Part shown: positions 26,548 through 32,705 of the stretch, one piece after another
Position numbering within the stretch: the stretch's first letter is position 1
Layout: each line of letters begins with the position of its first letter
Notes under the pieces: generated by a model
Told to the model about the DNA's origin: nothing
What the model saw: only the letters and a program-made list of their open reading frames with translations
Database searches by the model: none
Program-made: the position numbers and the translations under genes
Assembly (NCBI GenBank): GCA_963969345.1
Contig: OZ017770.1
Span: 5,899,246 to 5,963,245 of the forward strand
Direction of reading: 5' to 3'
DNA from: Turbatrix aceti
Taxonomy: Eukaryota; Nematoda; Chromadorea; Rhabditida; Panagrolaimidae
Length of the DNA: 64,000 nucleotides

Positions 26548-27347
26548 TTATTATTATTATTTATTTCACCATTACTCAGTGGTTAGTTATCATTAGACCA
26601 GATGTTAGGAGGCACAAATGACGTCCACGTAGGCGTAAATGTCTCGATTCGTTTTGGTCGCGATTTCTTCTTCCCCTCGTCGTTGTGGTCTGTTTTTCGT
26701 CTTGTTGAACACCGAGTTGAGCGAATCGGCCCATCGTAAGGAAGGGTGTCCCACGGGTCGTTTTCCTTGTGGTATCCACAAGGTCAGTCGTCGGGCCCAT
26801 CTGTTTTCGTCTGCCTCCAGGAGCTTTCGCGCGTATGTCCATTTTCGGCGTTCCGCTTCCTTCACCCAGTCTTTGAGTTTTGTTCTTCGTCGGATGATTT
26901 TGTTTCGGACTTTGTCAGACCGTCGCAGCCCGAGGATGGCTCGTTCGACTCGGTGTTGAGCATTGCGCAACGTAGATCTTGCCGTTTCTGTCAGCGCCCA
27001 GGTTTCACAGCCGTACAACACCGATGGCAAGATGCAGGCATGGATCAGGCGGCGCTTCAAGTACATTGGCGTGCGTTTGGAGCGCAGGAGATCTGAGTTC
27101 CGGTAGTAGATGGACCTTGCTGTCGAGATGCGATTACGTATCTCAACGACGTGGTTGCGCGGCCACTGCATCTTTTGGCCTAGATAGATGAACGACTGCA
27201 CCCGTTGGATAACCAGGCCGTGGAGGGAGAGCTCGAAATCATCCTCGATGTCCTTGAGGAGAAGTCCGGAGGAGATAGGTCGCTGATCCCGCCGTTTCTG
27301 TACCATCCACTGCGTCTTCTTGACGTTGACTTCCAGTCCGACGTCTT
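26548..27347 (-). mobile_element. 5'-truncated non-LTR retrotransposon (LINE), RT C-terminal part
   Basis: The minus strand encodes about 250 residues of the C-terminal part of a LINE reverse-transcriptase protein, uninterrupted to its own stop at 26605. Landmarks: FIYLGQK, the RLIHACILPSVLYGCETWALT segment typical of nematode and arthropod endonuclease/RT proteins, then an Arg-rich region and GHPSLRWADS. The catalytic YADD region and endonuclease lie upstream and are missing, so the copy is 5'-truncated and dead. The 3' end has a simple (AAT/AAAT)n tail (plus 26548-26566). Exact 13-base duplications flank it (26535-26547 and 27348-27360). The intact frame suggests a recent insertion. Confidence 0.9.
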
Positions 27348-27360
27348 TGTTAACTGTTTT
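27348..27360. repeat. target-site duplication, right copy (TGTTAACTGTTTT)
   Basis: This is the exact copy of 26535-26547, at the truncated 5' end of the LINE. Confidence 0.8.
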
Positions 27361-28182
27361 GTGGTAACTCAATTTGCACTATTTTATCCGTGCACTTTTT
27401 CTTCGTATACGTCAGGCAGTTTTTTGAAACATTCGAGAGATCTAAAGATCATCTCCAGACTAGAACTTTAAAAGGGTTAACGTGTCTGACTAGCCGTGTA
27501 ATCAAAAACCTAATTTTTAGGCAAATTTTTTTAGATTTTGCTTTTTTTTTATTTTTTTTAGCTCCGTTAGACAAATTTGTCCTACGCTTCTTTTTTTTGC
27601 CATGTTTGCTTTGAGGATCTGGATTTTTCATTGTTTCTTCTGCTTGTTGAGTTTTAGCTATGTCGTCATAAAGGGTAACGCTTTTATTTAAAATGCAATA
27701 AAAAATTTTCAAGAAAAGTAGTAGTTGTATAATTTGTTGTAGTTTAAAAAAAGCAAGCGTCACTGTTTGTTTTGGCCTTTTTCGGTGTGTCAAAAGTTTG
27801 AAAACAGGAGCTGCCAAACAAAACTGAAAAAGATGCTTAGTTATATTCGTGCAGTAGTTCTCACAGAAAATGAACAATTTGGCTAGTTAGCAACCACGCC
27901 TGCTCCCGTAGAAAACAAACGATAACTTTAACACTTAATATTTAGTGCCGTGCTTTTTGACGTCATGTCAAACTTCTTTGGTTTGCCACGAAATGACTTG
28001 ATTAATGCCGTGCATAATTTGACCACTATCTTTTGCCAGGTCATTGCTTCGTTTAATGACAGAAAAAACACAGTACAGATTTTTTGACAACCACTTCATA
28101 CTCCGCTTTTTTTGGCAAAACTACATTTTCATTCACGCATCCAAGCTTGGAAGCGTGAACAGCCTGTGCTTTTCTTCAATTT
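27361..28182. other. intergenic region
   Basis: AT-rich DNA between the LINE and the start of the membrane-hairpin gene. The minus frame at 27449-27877 (Lys-rich) has no motif or splice support. Confidence 0.5.
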
Positions 28183-31100
28183 ATGTGCTGTTGCTGTTGT
28201 AGTCTTCACAGACATCAGATTCATCTTATCAGGTATTTTGCATTTTATCAGGGATATTTTAATTAAAAAAATTTTGTTGCAGTTATGGATGTGTTGCATT
28301 TGGCCTTCTTACTACGGGTTTTGTCTTCACCGTGTTTGCTATATTCTACAAGGATTCCGACATTGGCAAAGGTACACTGAAAAAAATCATGTCAGGAAAA
28401 ACAGCCAAATTTGGCTGTTTTTGTGCTATTTCCAAAAACGACAGTTTTCTCTGACACATTTCTGGCTGTTAAAACTGACACATTTGGCCACAAAAACTGA
28501 CAAATGGGTTTTTCCCGCGCTTTTTCGTTGCCCTGCTTTTTGCCATTGATTACCCCCTATTGTGCCATTCAAACCGTAGTTTACATCATAATTTATCATT
28601 ATCAAACAAATAATCAACAAAAAAGCATACACAAAAAATCAGCGGAATTTGTCGTTCTTGTGGAGCTGTTTGCTCGTCTGTTTCTGTTCTGGAGTGTCAC
28701 CGTGAGGCCAGAGCTTGCAGTAGCCGTTGTCGAGTTCATCATGTCGTCGCCGTCAACGTCGATTTCACCGCTGCCCCTTGACCGTTGATGAAGCCGATTG
28801 GGCCTAAAAATCAAGAAAATTAGCTCGGTTTTCAATTTTTTTCCAAAAACTTACATTTTGCATGCAGGCAAGGATGTCTGAAGGCTGTGTGAAGTAATCT
28901 GAAAGCTTGAAGGACTTACTGAATACAAAATAAAACCCCAGCCATTTTTATCAAAAAATTTGATGCCAACTGCCTTTCAATCATTTTTCACCTTTTTTTG
29001 CAATTGTGAAGCCAAATCTTGGCACCCCAGCTGTCGCAGCGCAATCCTACCTAACAATTTGCAGAACTCTCATGGCACAATCGCATAAAAGGGAAAAAAA
29101 TGATTAAAACTTGGTTGGTATACAAAAAATAGTGAAACCGCCCCAAAACTTGGAAAAATTCAAAAACCTACGTCAGTGGAGGAAGGTTCGCTCGGATAAG
29201 GGTGCCGGTAGGTTGTACATGCTTGGAGGGTGTTGCCGGAAGAGTCTGAAACAAAACCAAAACAATTCACGCTAAAAAACAACAATTACAACACGAACGA
29301 GAAAAAAAGAACATAGACAAAAAAAGAACAAAGTTGGGCTGATCAAGCCGAGCGCTGCGACGCAACATTCGTGTTGAGACTCCTCAACAACGGAAAAGTT
29401 GCAGAACGCGCTATTTGTAAAATTAATTGGACGAAATTTATTTCTAAATTCGAAAACTTAGGTTTTTGAATAGATATTTGTAAGTTTTTTGTTTTGATAA
29501 AATAGAATCAAGTATTGTTGTTCGAACTGGGCTATTGGCGTTTTTCAAAATTTTCATTTTTGACAAAATTAAAGGAGGTGTACTAGAAAATTCATTACTT
29601 GGTAAAAAATAAAGCTACACATGCAGTAAAAAATGAATTCGAAGCGCAACAAAATTCTCTATCCATTAAAAATATGCACATGCTTCACCATATTTTTCAA
29701 ATGCCTGAAAAACTCAAACTTCCAAAATTTTTTTCCGAAAAATGAATTTTCAAAACTTTTTCGAACTGTAATCCAAAAACTAAAATCAGAATCGGATTCT
29801 ACAGTATCTTTTACATCTACACTGATTGTGTCAGAATTTTATATTTTTTCCGCGCGCCAGTGCAAATTTTCTTCTCAACCTCCCTTTTTTTGATGAGCAG
29901 ACACCAAAATTTTTCAAAGTAGGGTTCGGTATAAAAATCGGCATGGATCGCGTTTGAAATGCATTTACGCGAAAAGTTAGGGTCCGGGGCAGAAATGAAC
30001 GCTGAAGCGAATGGCGCACTCAGTTTTTTAAATTGAGTTCTAAAAAGTTCCGAAAACCTAATTTTTCTCAGAAATTTCATTTTTTTCGAAACTTCTAAGG
30101 TGATAAGGTATAGTTTTTTCTTCAAAATCAGTTAGAGAATTTAGTTTCGCTTCAGAATTGCTTTTGATTGCCTTCCTAGCTCATTTTGTTTATGCGCCGC
30201 GATTTTTCTACCATACCTCCTTCGATTTTGTCAATTTTGAACGAATTAAAAAAAAGAATTATGTCAGCATAAAGAACACCCCTGAAACTGTCTGTAAACA
30301 AAATTTCATAAAAAAAACTGAATTTTGGGCTGAGTTACATGTTTTTGTAATTTGGTGCGAAATCCACATCTTCAAAATGCATTGACTCGCGCGCGCAACA
30401 TGCGAAAGCCTCGGCAGTCTGGTGCGCTTTGGAGCTCTGGACAAAAGTCGGTTGAATTAAATTTATTTAAAAAATTCAAAACAATGAGCGTTTATTGTCT
30501 ATTGTCTTCCTTTTTTTGGTACAAATAGAATCAAGCATCATCTTTCAAATGAGGTGATTCCCGTTTTGCAAAGTTGGCATTGGTGACAAATTTGAGTAGG
30601 GTGTACTAGAAAAATCATATTTATGTACGTAATAAAGATCGAAAACCAATCCAAAATGCATTCGACGCGCAACAAAATTTTCTTTCTAACGATTATATTT
30701 AGTCCTACTTTAATGATTAGGCCAGTGCAAGAAAAAATTAAATTTTTGGAATAAAAATTTTGTTTTGAAAATTTCGAAACGTTTTCGAAACCGGATCAAA
30801 AAACCAATATCAAAATTAGATTCCGCAGCATCTTTTACGTCTAAGGGCGGTGTTTCAGAATTTTTTCTCTTTCCGACGCGCCGGTGTATAATTTCTCCTG
30901 AACCCTACTTTTTTTGAGTTCCAGGCAACAAAAATTTTCAAAGTAGGGTTCGGCAAAAAAATCAACAAACGGCGCGTTTGTTATGCATTTTTTTGAAAAT
31001 TTAGGCTCAGGGGTAAAAATGAACGCAGAATACAATGGTGCTATCAGTTTTGTGACTCGGGTTCTAAAAAGTTTCGAAAACCTAATTTTTTTCGGAAATT

Positions 31101-32705
31101 TCAATTTTTTCGAAACTTTCAAAGTGACATAGTGTATATTTTTTTTCAAAATTAGTTAGAGAATTTTATTGCGCTTCAGAATTGCTGTCCCACGCATTTT
31201 TAGCTCTTCTGGTTCACTCACAACGATTTTTTTACCATACCTCCCTCAAATTCGACAATTTTGGCCGATTTCGGCAATCAAAATTGTTCGAACATTTGTA
31301 TTTTTGCTTGCCAAAAAACTAGAAATGCCGAATACAATAGAAAAACACCATAAAAAAAATTTTCGTATTGCGGGACTCGAACAGCACACCCTCAGCTTCA
31401 CAGTCCTACCCCCTACCAGCATCGCTATTTTGGAAAAAGCTGGGCTTTTTTTCATTTTCGCCGCGGCTGAAACCAGATGCCTTATCTCCTATCATTTTCA
31501 CCCAAAGATGATAAATCCACTTTTTAAACGATGCTGGGAACACAAGAAAACATTTGCATATGCAGAATGCCACATAAAACCCTCAACAACCCAGTTTGAA
31601 AAACTGAGCTTTTGAAATATGTCAGTTTTTCCTGACAAGAAAATGGCTGTTTTGAAAACAGCCAAAATTTGGCTGTTTTTTTGTACAAAACGTGTCAGTT
31701 TTGAAAACTGACATAAAAATTTTTTCTCAGTGTAAGTGCCAACTTTAAAGAGATGCTTCATGTCCATTTTTAGTGTGGCTGGCCGGGCCTACGACGATGG
31801 TAGTGGGCCTTGTGCTGTGCGGCAAAGTGTTCATTGATTGGGGGCCTGCAATGCTTCACGCTCGTGAAGGGTCCATTGATTCACGTTTGGGAGGACAATT
31901 AATGTCCACCAACATAGCACTGAATAACATGGCAAATCAGGCCGCTGTTTTTGAAAATACTCAACCTCAACCCCCGGTTTTTAGTAATCAGGCTTCGTTG
32001 AAGTACAACTCGGCTCCAGTCGACGTCAGTAGCTGCCCCCAGCATTGCAATCAAGCCGGGGTGCAGTGCTTCGGGAGTCCTGGACGTGGAGAACCCACCT
32101 ATATGCCATACAGCGGCGAGTTCCACCAAAAAGTTAGAACTTTGTATAAACATTCGTTTTTTTTTTCTTATATTAACCTTTTCAAGCAATTTGAAACTTG
32201 CGAAGGCTTCGTGCCGCCGCAGCAGTCTGCTCCAGTTTCAATGAAACAAATTTACGTCCAGAACCACCACCAAGAGCCGGAGTACTCGACAGAACCAGTG
32301 CGGGTCAAAGCGGGCAGCAGTGTTGACATGGCATCCTACGGCGTATTTATGAACCAACAGATGAACACAGAAAACAATAATCATCATCATTCCTCTCTTC
32401 CTCAATATGTACCGCCGAGAGGAGTGTCAGCTTCTCATACCAATCTCTACACCAGTCCCAGCCAGCTGAATCAGTCGCGAAAAGCTTCGTCTCCGCTGCT
32501 CCATATGACGCATCCTGCCGTGCGAAATATGCCCTATTCCCCACAGCGCAACCGCTTCGATTGCAGTTGTCACAAAAGTGGAGGACCTTCTTCACAGCCT
32601 GTTAATTACGGCAGTGTCCGACGCGCATCCGACCAAGTTCCTTCCAGATCGCACTTATATCAAGGAGAAACATTTGTATACAATGGAAAAAATTATTTCA
32701 TTTAG
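28183..32705 (+). CDS. membrane-hairpin protein with poly-Cys N-terminus (unknown function)
   Basis: Exons 28183-28232, 28283-28371 and 31774-32705 stay in frame (356 residues if 32133-32186 is read through; 338 if that AT-rich 54-base stretch is an intron ending TTTTCAAG, which I favour). The protein starts MCCCCCS, a likely palmitoylation cluster. Two hydrophobic segments follow, VAFGLLTTGFVFTVFAIFY and MVVGLVLCGKVFIDWG, separated by about 20 residues, predicting a hairpin with both ends cytosolic. The remaining 270 residues or so are Ser/Pro/Gln/Tyr-rich and end GKNYFI, compatible with a class II PDZ ligand. The second intron (28372-31773) is 3.4 kb only because a transposon sits in its donor site. 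I do not recognise a family. Confidence 0.72.
28373..28374. repeat. TA target-site duplication, left
   Basis: The TA preceding CACTGAAAAA matches the TA at 31733-31734. Confidence 0.7.
28640..29245 (-). pseudogene. gene-like spliced segment inside the TIR element (possible captured fragment)
   Basis: Three exon-like blocks run on the minus strand inside the element: 29245-29172 (after TTTCAG, before GTAGGT), 28918-28855 (after ATTCAG, before GTAAGT), and from 28803 (after TTTTTAG) to about 28640. They are more GC-rich than the rest of the element, and the middle block reads smoothly (SDYFTQPSDILACMQN). I see no start codon or recognisable domain, and phases cannot be fixed uniquely. It could be a host gene fragment captured by the element or a remnant of a nested gene. 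Confidence 0.35.
29490..31280. repeat. two diverged direct copies of a unit of about 1 kb
   Basis: The 29490-30260 segment aligns with 30510-31280 at a spacing of about 1020 bases. Shared landmarks are AATAGAATCAAG, GGTGTACTAGAAAA, TCTAAAAAGTT, GAAAACCTAATTTTT, GTTAGAGAATTT and TTTTTCTACCATACCTCC. Each copy carries a 102-codon minus-strand frame (29817-30125 and 30841-31149) that align end to end without gaps, with roughly half the residues identical. The arrangement is a tandem duplication inside the TIR element. Confidence 0.75.
31733..31734. repeat. TA target-site duplication, right
   Basis: The TA following the right inverted repeat; the next bases (AGTGCC) continue the original splice donor. 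Confidence 0.7.

Follow-up and report, generated by a model that had tools for sequence, protein, structure and literature searches.

A young CACTA-like transposon in a splice donor of a predicted membrane protein gene of the nematode Turbatrix aceti has left two unequal donor copies

The window analyzed here is a 64,000-nucleotide stretch of DNA from the nematode Turbatrix aceti (GenBank assembly GCA_963969345.1, contig OZ017770.1, positions 5,899,246 to 5,963,245), which is part of contig C6 in a 59.9-Mb genome of 28 contigs. It contains a gene that is predicted to encode a conserved nematode membrane protein and whose second intron now carries a 3,358-bp transposon (Table 1). The element sits within the splice donor of that intron. 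The donor has been duplicated, not lost: an altered copy, GTACAC, remains at the edge of exon 2, while beyond the element a full GTAAGT has been rebuilt.

An earlier reading of the window, made from its sequence alone, had placed this insertion at 28365-31775, and its coordinates and sequences were borne out to the base. The present arrangement is GGCAAAGG TA [3,358-bp element] TA AGTGCC. When the element and one TA are deleted, GGCAAAG/GTAAGTGCC is regained, along with an intron of 42 nt (GT...TTTTTAG) whose last base is 31773. As that reading had proposed, the TA inside GTAAGT was the target of the transposon, GTACAC preserves the GT at the exon edge, and the intron has grown to 3.4 kb. The ancestral donor was flanked by a perfect 6-bp inverted repeat of host sequence, TTGGCA/TGCCAA, which would have placed it in an 8-nt loop.

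Table 1. Features of the interrupted gene and its transposon (window coordinates)
Feature	Position	Strand	Basis or remark
Exon 1, predicted coding part, MCCCCCSLHRHQIHLIS...	28183-28232	+	many homologues with MCC..LHRHQ.HLISYG start
Intron 1, predicted, 50 nt, GTATTT...TTGCAG	28233-28282	+	join required for HLIS-YGCVAF of homologues
Exon 2, ends ...GGCAAAG	28283-28371	+	homologue comparison
Intron 2 at present, 3,402 nt (42 nt without insertion)	28372-31773	+	IGK/V or I-WLAG join, 38/41 homologues
Left donor copy GTACAC, correct position, altered after +3	28372-28377	+	U1 duplex -5.6 kcal/mol
Target site duplication TA, left copy	28373-28374	+	dinucleotide repeat flanking element
Non-autonomous DNA transposon, CACTG...CAGTG ends, 3,358 bp	28375-31732	+	27 two-ended genome copies, window included
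Acceptor-like element end TTTTTTCTCAG, then TG	31720-31730	+	right end constant in 27/27 copies
Rebuilt full donor GTAAGT (last G of element + TA + AGT)	31732-31737	+	U1 duplex -9.5 kcal/mol
Target site duplication TA, right copy	31733-31734	+	dinucleotide repeat flanking element
Original acceptor TTTTTAG	31767-31773	+	sequence
Exon 3 onward to stop codon	31774-32705	+	sequence and translation

The structure of the host gene can be read from its homologues. A protein search yielded 41 of these, four without a source name and the others from nematodes. Translation across exons 28183-28232, 28283-28371, and 31774 onward gives MCCCCCSLHRHQIHLIS-YGCVAFGLLTTGFVFTVFAIFYKDSDIGK-VWLAGPTTMVVGL, and the motif IGK[VI]WLAGPT spans the join between exons 2 and 3 in 38 of the homologues (the three others start at or after the join), which supports the exon boundary. 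What exons 1 and 2 encode, namely the conserved start and the first membrane segment, is found in most of the 41 homologues. Further downstream lies a candidate third intron (in frame, 54 nt, 32133-32186) that is unproven. In a genome search, the four exon matches all fell at one locus, which, at the sensitivity of the search, makes the gene single-copy; it was located nowhere else in the assembly, where there is no second allele. No Pfam family matched the host protein, and across the window Rfam returned nothing at gathering scores and ARAGORN no tRNA.

The identification of the insertion as a transposon, which the sequence-only reading had also made, is upheld by its relatives elsewhere in the genome. 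Used as queries, its two ends returned 59 and 39 matches, counts that take in short internal ones. From 31 fetched stretches and the window, we kept 27 copies with both ends, setting aside L035 (contig end), L036 and L037 (left end only), and L038 and L039 (weak matches); the figure is a minimum, since repeat counts from the genome search are lower bounds. All 27 two-ended copies start with CACTGA and end with TCAGTG. Identical dinucleotides flank 26 of them (TA in 18, CA and AA in three each, TG and GA in one each), and the remaining copy, L030, has a 3-bp repeat. Copies whose left neighbor is not G still end in G at the right, which indicates that the terminal G belongs to the element and that the target site duplication (TSD) is TA. 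The constancy of the ends extends inward, with TTTTTTCTCAGTG at the right end of all 27 copies and its mirror, TTTTTTTCAGTG, at the opposite end of 26. The window copy belongs to a young group with L016, L023, L032, and L015 (identity of at least 99.85%). It differs from the closest of these, L016, by one base over 3,358 bp, a change private to the window copy among the five, which argues that the insertion is recent. The longest listed open reading frame lying wholly within the element is 148 amino acids, and no transposase was found.

The element is EnSpm/CACTA (CMC)-like, judging from its 5'-CAC...GTG-3' termini and short TSD. Such ends together with a 2-bp TSD place elements in CACTA/CMC (PMC6004678), and the TSD of the wider CMCT clade is given as 2 to 5 bp (PMC12730594). 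The elements CMC-NA_1, CMC-NA_2, and ENS1_Cis are described with the same ends and a 2-bp TSD (PMC6004678). Near both ends of the present element, TGTCAG/CTGACA motifs also recur. Transposases of CMC elements are DDE proteins with C(2)C and H(3-4)H motifs (PMC12730594). PF02992, the only family model tried, matched neither here nor in 14 controls and is hence uninformative. Fungal EnSpm-like lineages with a TA TSD are also called ESTA (PMC12730594), so that more than one EnSpm-like sub-lineage may come into question. Tc1/mariner elements have a strict TA target. With CA, AA, TG, or GA duplicated at 8 of the 27 copies and a 3-bp repeat at one, the target here is not strictly TA, which makes membership in Tc1/mariner unlikely.

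Several features of the family stand apart from the insertion in the host gene. Inside the element, diverged direct repeats (~70-77% identical) recur at a spacing of ~1,024 bases (window 29427-31150). Two copies, L044 and L045, form a related group that is ~90% identical from position 97 on. Together with eight of nine left-end stretches (L047-L063) they make up a subfamily in which the outermost CACTGAAAAAAAT is kept and CGTCAG/CTGACG replaces TGTCAG/CTGACA near the ends, a change that looks as if a transposase-binding motif had been switched. Among 11 relatives examined in this second subfamily, seven are two-ended (L044, L045, L051, L053, L055, L059, and L063), with a TSD of 2 bp in six and 3 bp in L059. 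At C6:10116046-10125444, three copies (L009, L024, and L018) with alternating orientations are packed into ~9.4 kb; one has undergone internal rearrangement and is reduced to 2,052 bp. Upstream of the host gene, the minus strand of window 26605-27372 holds a 255-amino-acid open frame with no convincing family match, which by eye we take to resemble the C-terminal fragment of a LINE reverse transcriptase.

Entry into a donor does not call for a special explanation. In a set of 204,386 nt, made up of the window without the element, the flanks of the 26 other copies, and six further loci, the hexamer GTAAGT occurs 77 times, counting both strands and whether or not it serves as a donor, alongside 12,201 TA dinucleotides. 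The probability that at least one insertion falls in GTAAGT is 0.11 for 19 insertions, the number taken for the calculation (copies with TA number 18), and 0.16 for 27; it rises to 0.24 for 19 if targets are limited to GTA/TAC. As a coincidence, a single GTAAGT insertion is unremarkable. The family does prefer G before its target (15 of 26, binomial 4e-5 at p = 0.207), a bias that raises the odds of donors being hit. C follows the duplicated dinucleotide in just 8 of 26, so that the preference is one-sided relative to the orientation of the element. Preferential targeting of donors is unsupported, as GTRAGT on either strand occurs at the window copy and at none of the 26 others. A hairpin at the target was likewise rejected as a rule of the family, the mean fold energy being -2.6 for the 27 empty sites and -2.2 in flanks.

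The consequences for splicing follow from the structure of the insertion. A TA duplication combined with CAC...GTG ends doubles the donor into two unequal copies. The sequence-only reading was right that the donor at the exon edge had become GTACAC; it had overlooked that a full GTAAGT was not destroyed and now begins at 31732. The predicted U1 duplex of the empty-site donor, -11.7 kcal/mol, is stronger than that of either present copy. The rebuilt donor stands in the context T/GTAAGT, and from 31732 to the end of the old acceptor there are again 42 nt. Since the end of the element supplies an acceptor-like sequence as well, the question becomes which of two donors and two acceptors will pair. 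Additional donor- and acceptor-like words lie inside the element, at 29480 and 31203, outside the five routes translated below.

To judge these signals, we used the same 204-kb set, which is small, includes some overlaps and other element copies, and lies partly near contig ends. Measured from GTRAGT to TTTYYAG-like acceptors, spacings are most often 45-64 nt (33 pairs); two pairs fall at 40-44 nt. The earlier description of the 42-nt intron as typical of this genome therefore holds, although the intron lies at the short edge of the length peak. GT sites with G at +5 are enriched 40-55 nt ahead of strong acceptors (122 seen versus 72.5 expected). GTA sites lacking that G show no excess at the same distance (61 versus 61.9), and GTACAC itself was seen once at intron distance, with 0.9 expected.

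Only one of the five routes that we translated yields the normal protein. Joining GTACAC to 31773 in one step gives 356 amino acids (338 should the unproven third intron exist). Use of the right donor only (31732 to 31773) gives 73 amino acids, as does full retention. Splicing of the element to 31730 leads to 47 amino acids if the small intron is kept, and to one extra T, a frameshift, and 67 amino acids if it is then removed.

We propose that a recently active non-autonomous EnSpm/CACTA (CMC)-like transposon entered intron 2 at the TA of its GTAAGT donor, leaving a weak GTACAC in place at 28372 and a full GTAAGT at 31732, such that exactly one minimal intron now runs from the latter to the end of the old acceptor. 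If splicing follows intron definition, 31732 offers a strong donor that would pair easily with the acceptor at 31773, and removal of 31732-31773 would take away the sole acceptor that gives GTACAC a correct message. Loss of the small intron is loss of the correct acceptor, so that the order of splicing decides the outcome. Afterwards, the element would either be retained (73 amino acids) or be removed by joining GTACAC to the acceptor of the element, with the extra T and the frameshift (67 amino acids). A normal messenger RNA would arise only if GTACAC paired with 31773 first. Because the short, strong pair should win under intron definition, we lean toward a partial loss-of-function allele with mixed, mostly aberrant transcripts.

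A number of observations weigh against this interpretation. The rebuilt donor has T, not G, at -1, and its GU is covered in the predicted pairing of the element ends. A transcript that retains the whole element would contain a very long exon, and loss of a conserved single-copy gene may not be tolerated. The host gene may also work with weak donors, given that intron 1 begins with the non-consensus GTATTT (-7.3 kcal/mol) and that the donor of the unproven third intron would be GTTAGA (-1.6 kcal/mol). Finally, when all GT sites without G at +5 are taken together in the 204-kb set, they do show an excess (324 versus 281.3 expected), mostly of GTT-rich words.

The most serious alternative, which we regard as possible though doubtful, is that splicing remains nearly normal because the paired ends of the element bring exon 2 to the old acceptor while masking the right donor and the acceptor of the element, so that GTACAC joins 31773 and the element leaves within a 3.4-kb intron. 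The modeled duplex between the two ends comes to -47.3 kcal/mol versus a mean of -20.1 and a lowest value of -31.1 in 200 shuffles, although the controls were shuffled by single letters. In the predicted stem, which the host flanks TTGGCA (28363-28368) and TGCCAA (31737-31742) lengthen, G31732, U31733, and A31734 are paired along with the terminal AG (31729-31730), and G28372 is free. Yet the left donor, too, has paired bases in that stem (U28373 and A28374), and the arms are separated by 3.3 kb, such that co-transcriptional folding may fail to join them. A case from soybean cuts both ways. In a revertant, an intron with a large CACTA element is reported to be correctly spliced, at a low transcript level, while for the mutable line it was proposed that proteins bound to the element ends disturb intron processing (PMC4219821).

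It is unlikely that the element behaves as a new or twin intron, in which GTACAC joins the acceptor of the element at 31730 and T/GTAAGT to 31773 is also spliced, in either order. The acceptor-like TTTTTTCTCAG is present at the right end of 27/27 copies, with the mirror form on the other strand in 26/27 (TTTTTTTCAG/TG, on the opposite strand of the other end). Termini of En/Spm (dSpm) reportedly act as splice sites in maize A2, an account ascribed to Menssen in 1990. Furthermore, fungal twin introns are described in which a donor is split (PMC12403724). However, the extra T throws this route out of frame (67 amino acids), so that it cannot be the functional one, and the acceptor at the element end is itself paired in the predicted stem. 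Nor is the geometry that of a [D1,2] stwintron, which is split between G1 and U2 and correctly joined once both introns are spliced; that classification was rejected since the split here follows +3 and the two-step product gains one T. We consider it very improbable that the insertion is simply ignored, whether because transcripts begin downstream or because the allele occurs in rare heterozygous carriers and has in effect not been exposed to selection. The youth of the insertion and the finding of the gene at one locus, with no second allele in the assembly, are compatible with such a situation, but the conservation of what exons 1 and 2 encode speaks against it.

Should empty alleles exist alongside carriers, the locus would allow a comparison of two donors of the same intron in their natural place: a weak donor at the right position but 3.4 kb from the acceptor, and a full donor that breaks the frame from 42 nt away. 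Such a comparison would bear on whether proximity or the exon edge guides intron choice in nematodes, and on the way in which DNA transposons turn into introns. The value of the locus as the clean natural experiment envisaged by the sequence-only reading thus depends on the existence of an empty allele. Otherwise, the locus simply adds a young transposon insertion that probably affects one gene. A broader idea, which we hold to be quite improbable, is that members of the family arrive already equipped to rewire splicing. On this view, both ends carry a polypyrimidine-CAG acceptor (one strand each), G-TA is rebuilt at the far end of TA insertions, and G is preferred before the target. Insertion into a donor would then create a self-competing donor pair, with the winner set by pairing of the inverted ends, as an intermediate toward an animal twin intron or introner.

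Known systems share parts of this arrangement. En/Spm (dSpm) in maize A2 is, like the element described here, CACTA-type with a splice site in its end; there a new intron arose in the gene, whereas here an existing donor was split and duplicated. Removal of Tc1 from C. elegans pre-mRNA is said to have been described by Rushforth and Anderson in 1996. That system also places a transposon in a nematode gene, and mixed messages were seen for rsd-3(pk2013), in which three of five cDNA clones were in frame with 48 extra bp and two were frameshifted (PMC4910058). Unlike the present insertion, that Tc1 lies in an exon and belongs to another element family, and excision from the transgene array was not excluded there. 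Some introners carry a 3' splice site and draw the 5' site from the duplicated target (PMC9860276), a likeness to the element-borne acceptor and TSD-derived donor found here. They differ in that the present insertion lies in the donor of an existing intron and that its self-contained route shifts the frame; moreover, introners have many copies within genes as spliced introns, and the window copy is the only one of the present family shown to lie within an intron, the flanks of the other copies being unannotated. In [D1,2] stwintrons, too, the donor of an outer intron is split by other sequence, but between G1 and U2 and with no duplication seen in the fungal cases (PMC12403724); here the split follows the third donor base and TA is duplicated. 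Narrow literature searches, which required all terms together and so are weak evidence of absence, turned up no description of this geometry, an unequal donor duplication at the distance of one minimal intron. The underlying principle is nevertheless covered by known cases, namely, splice sites in CACTA ends, the splicing of Tc1, the soybean intron, introners, and twin introns.

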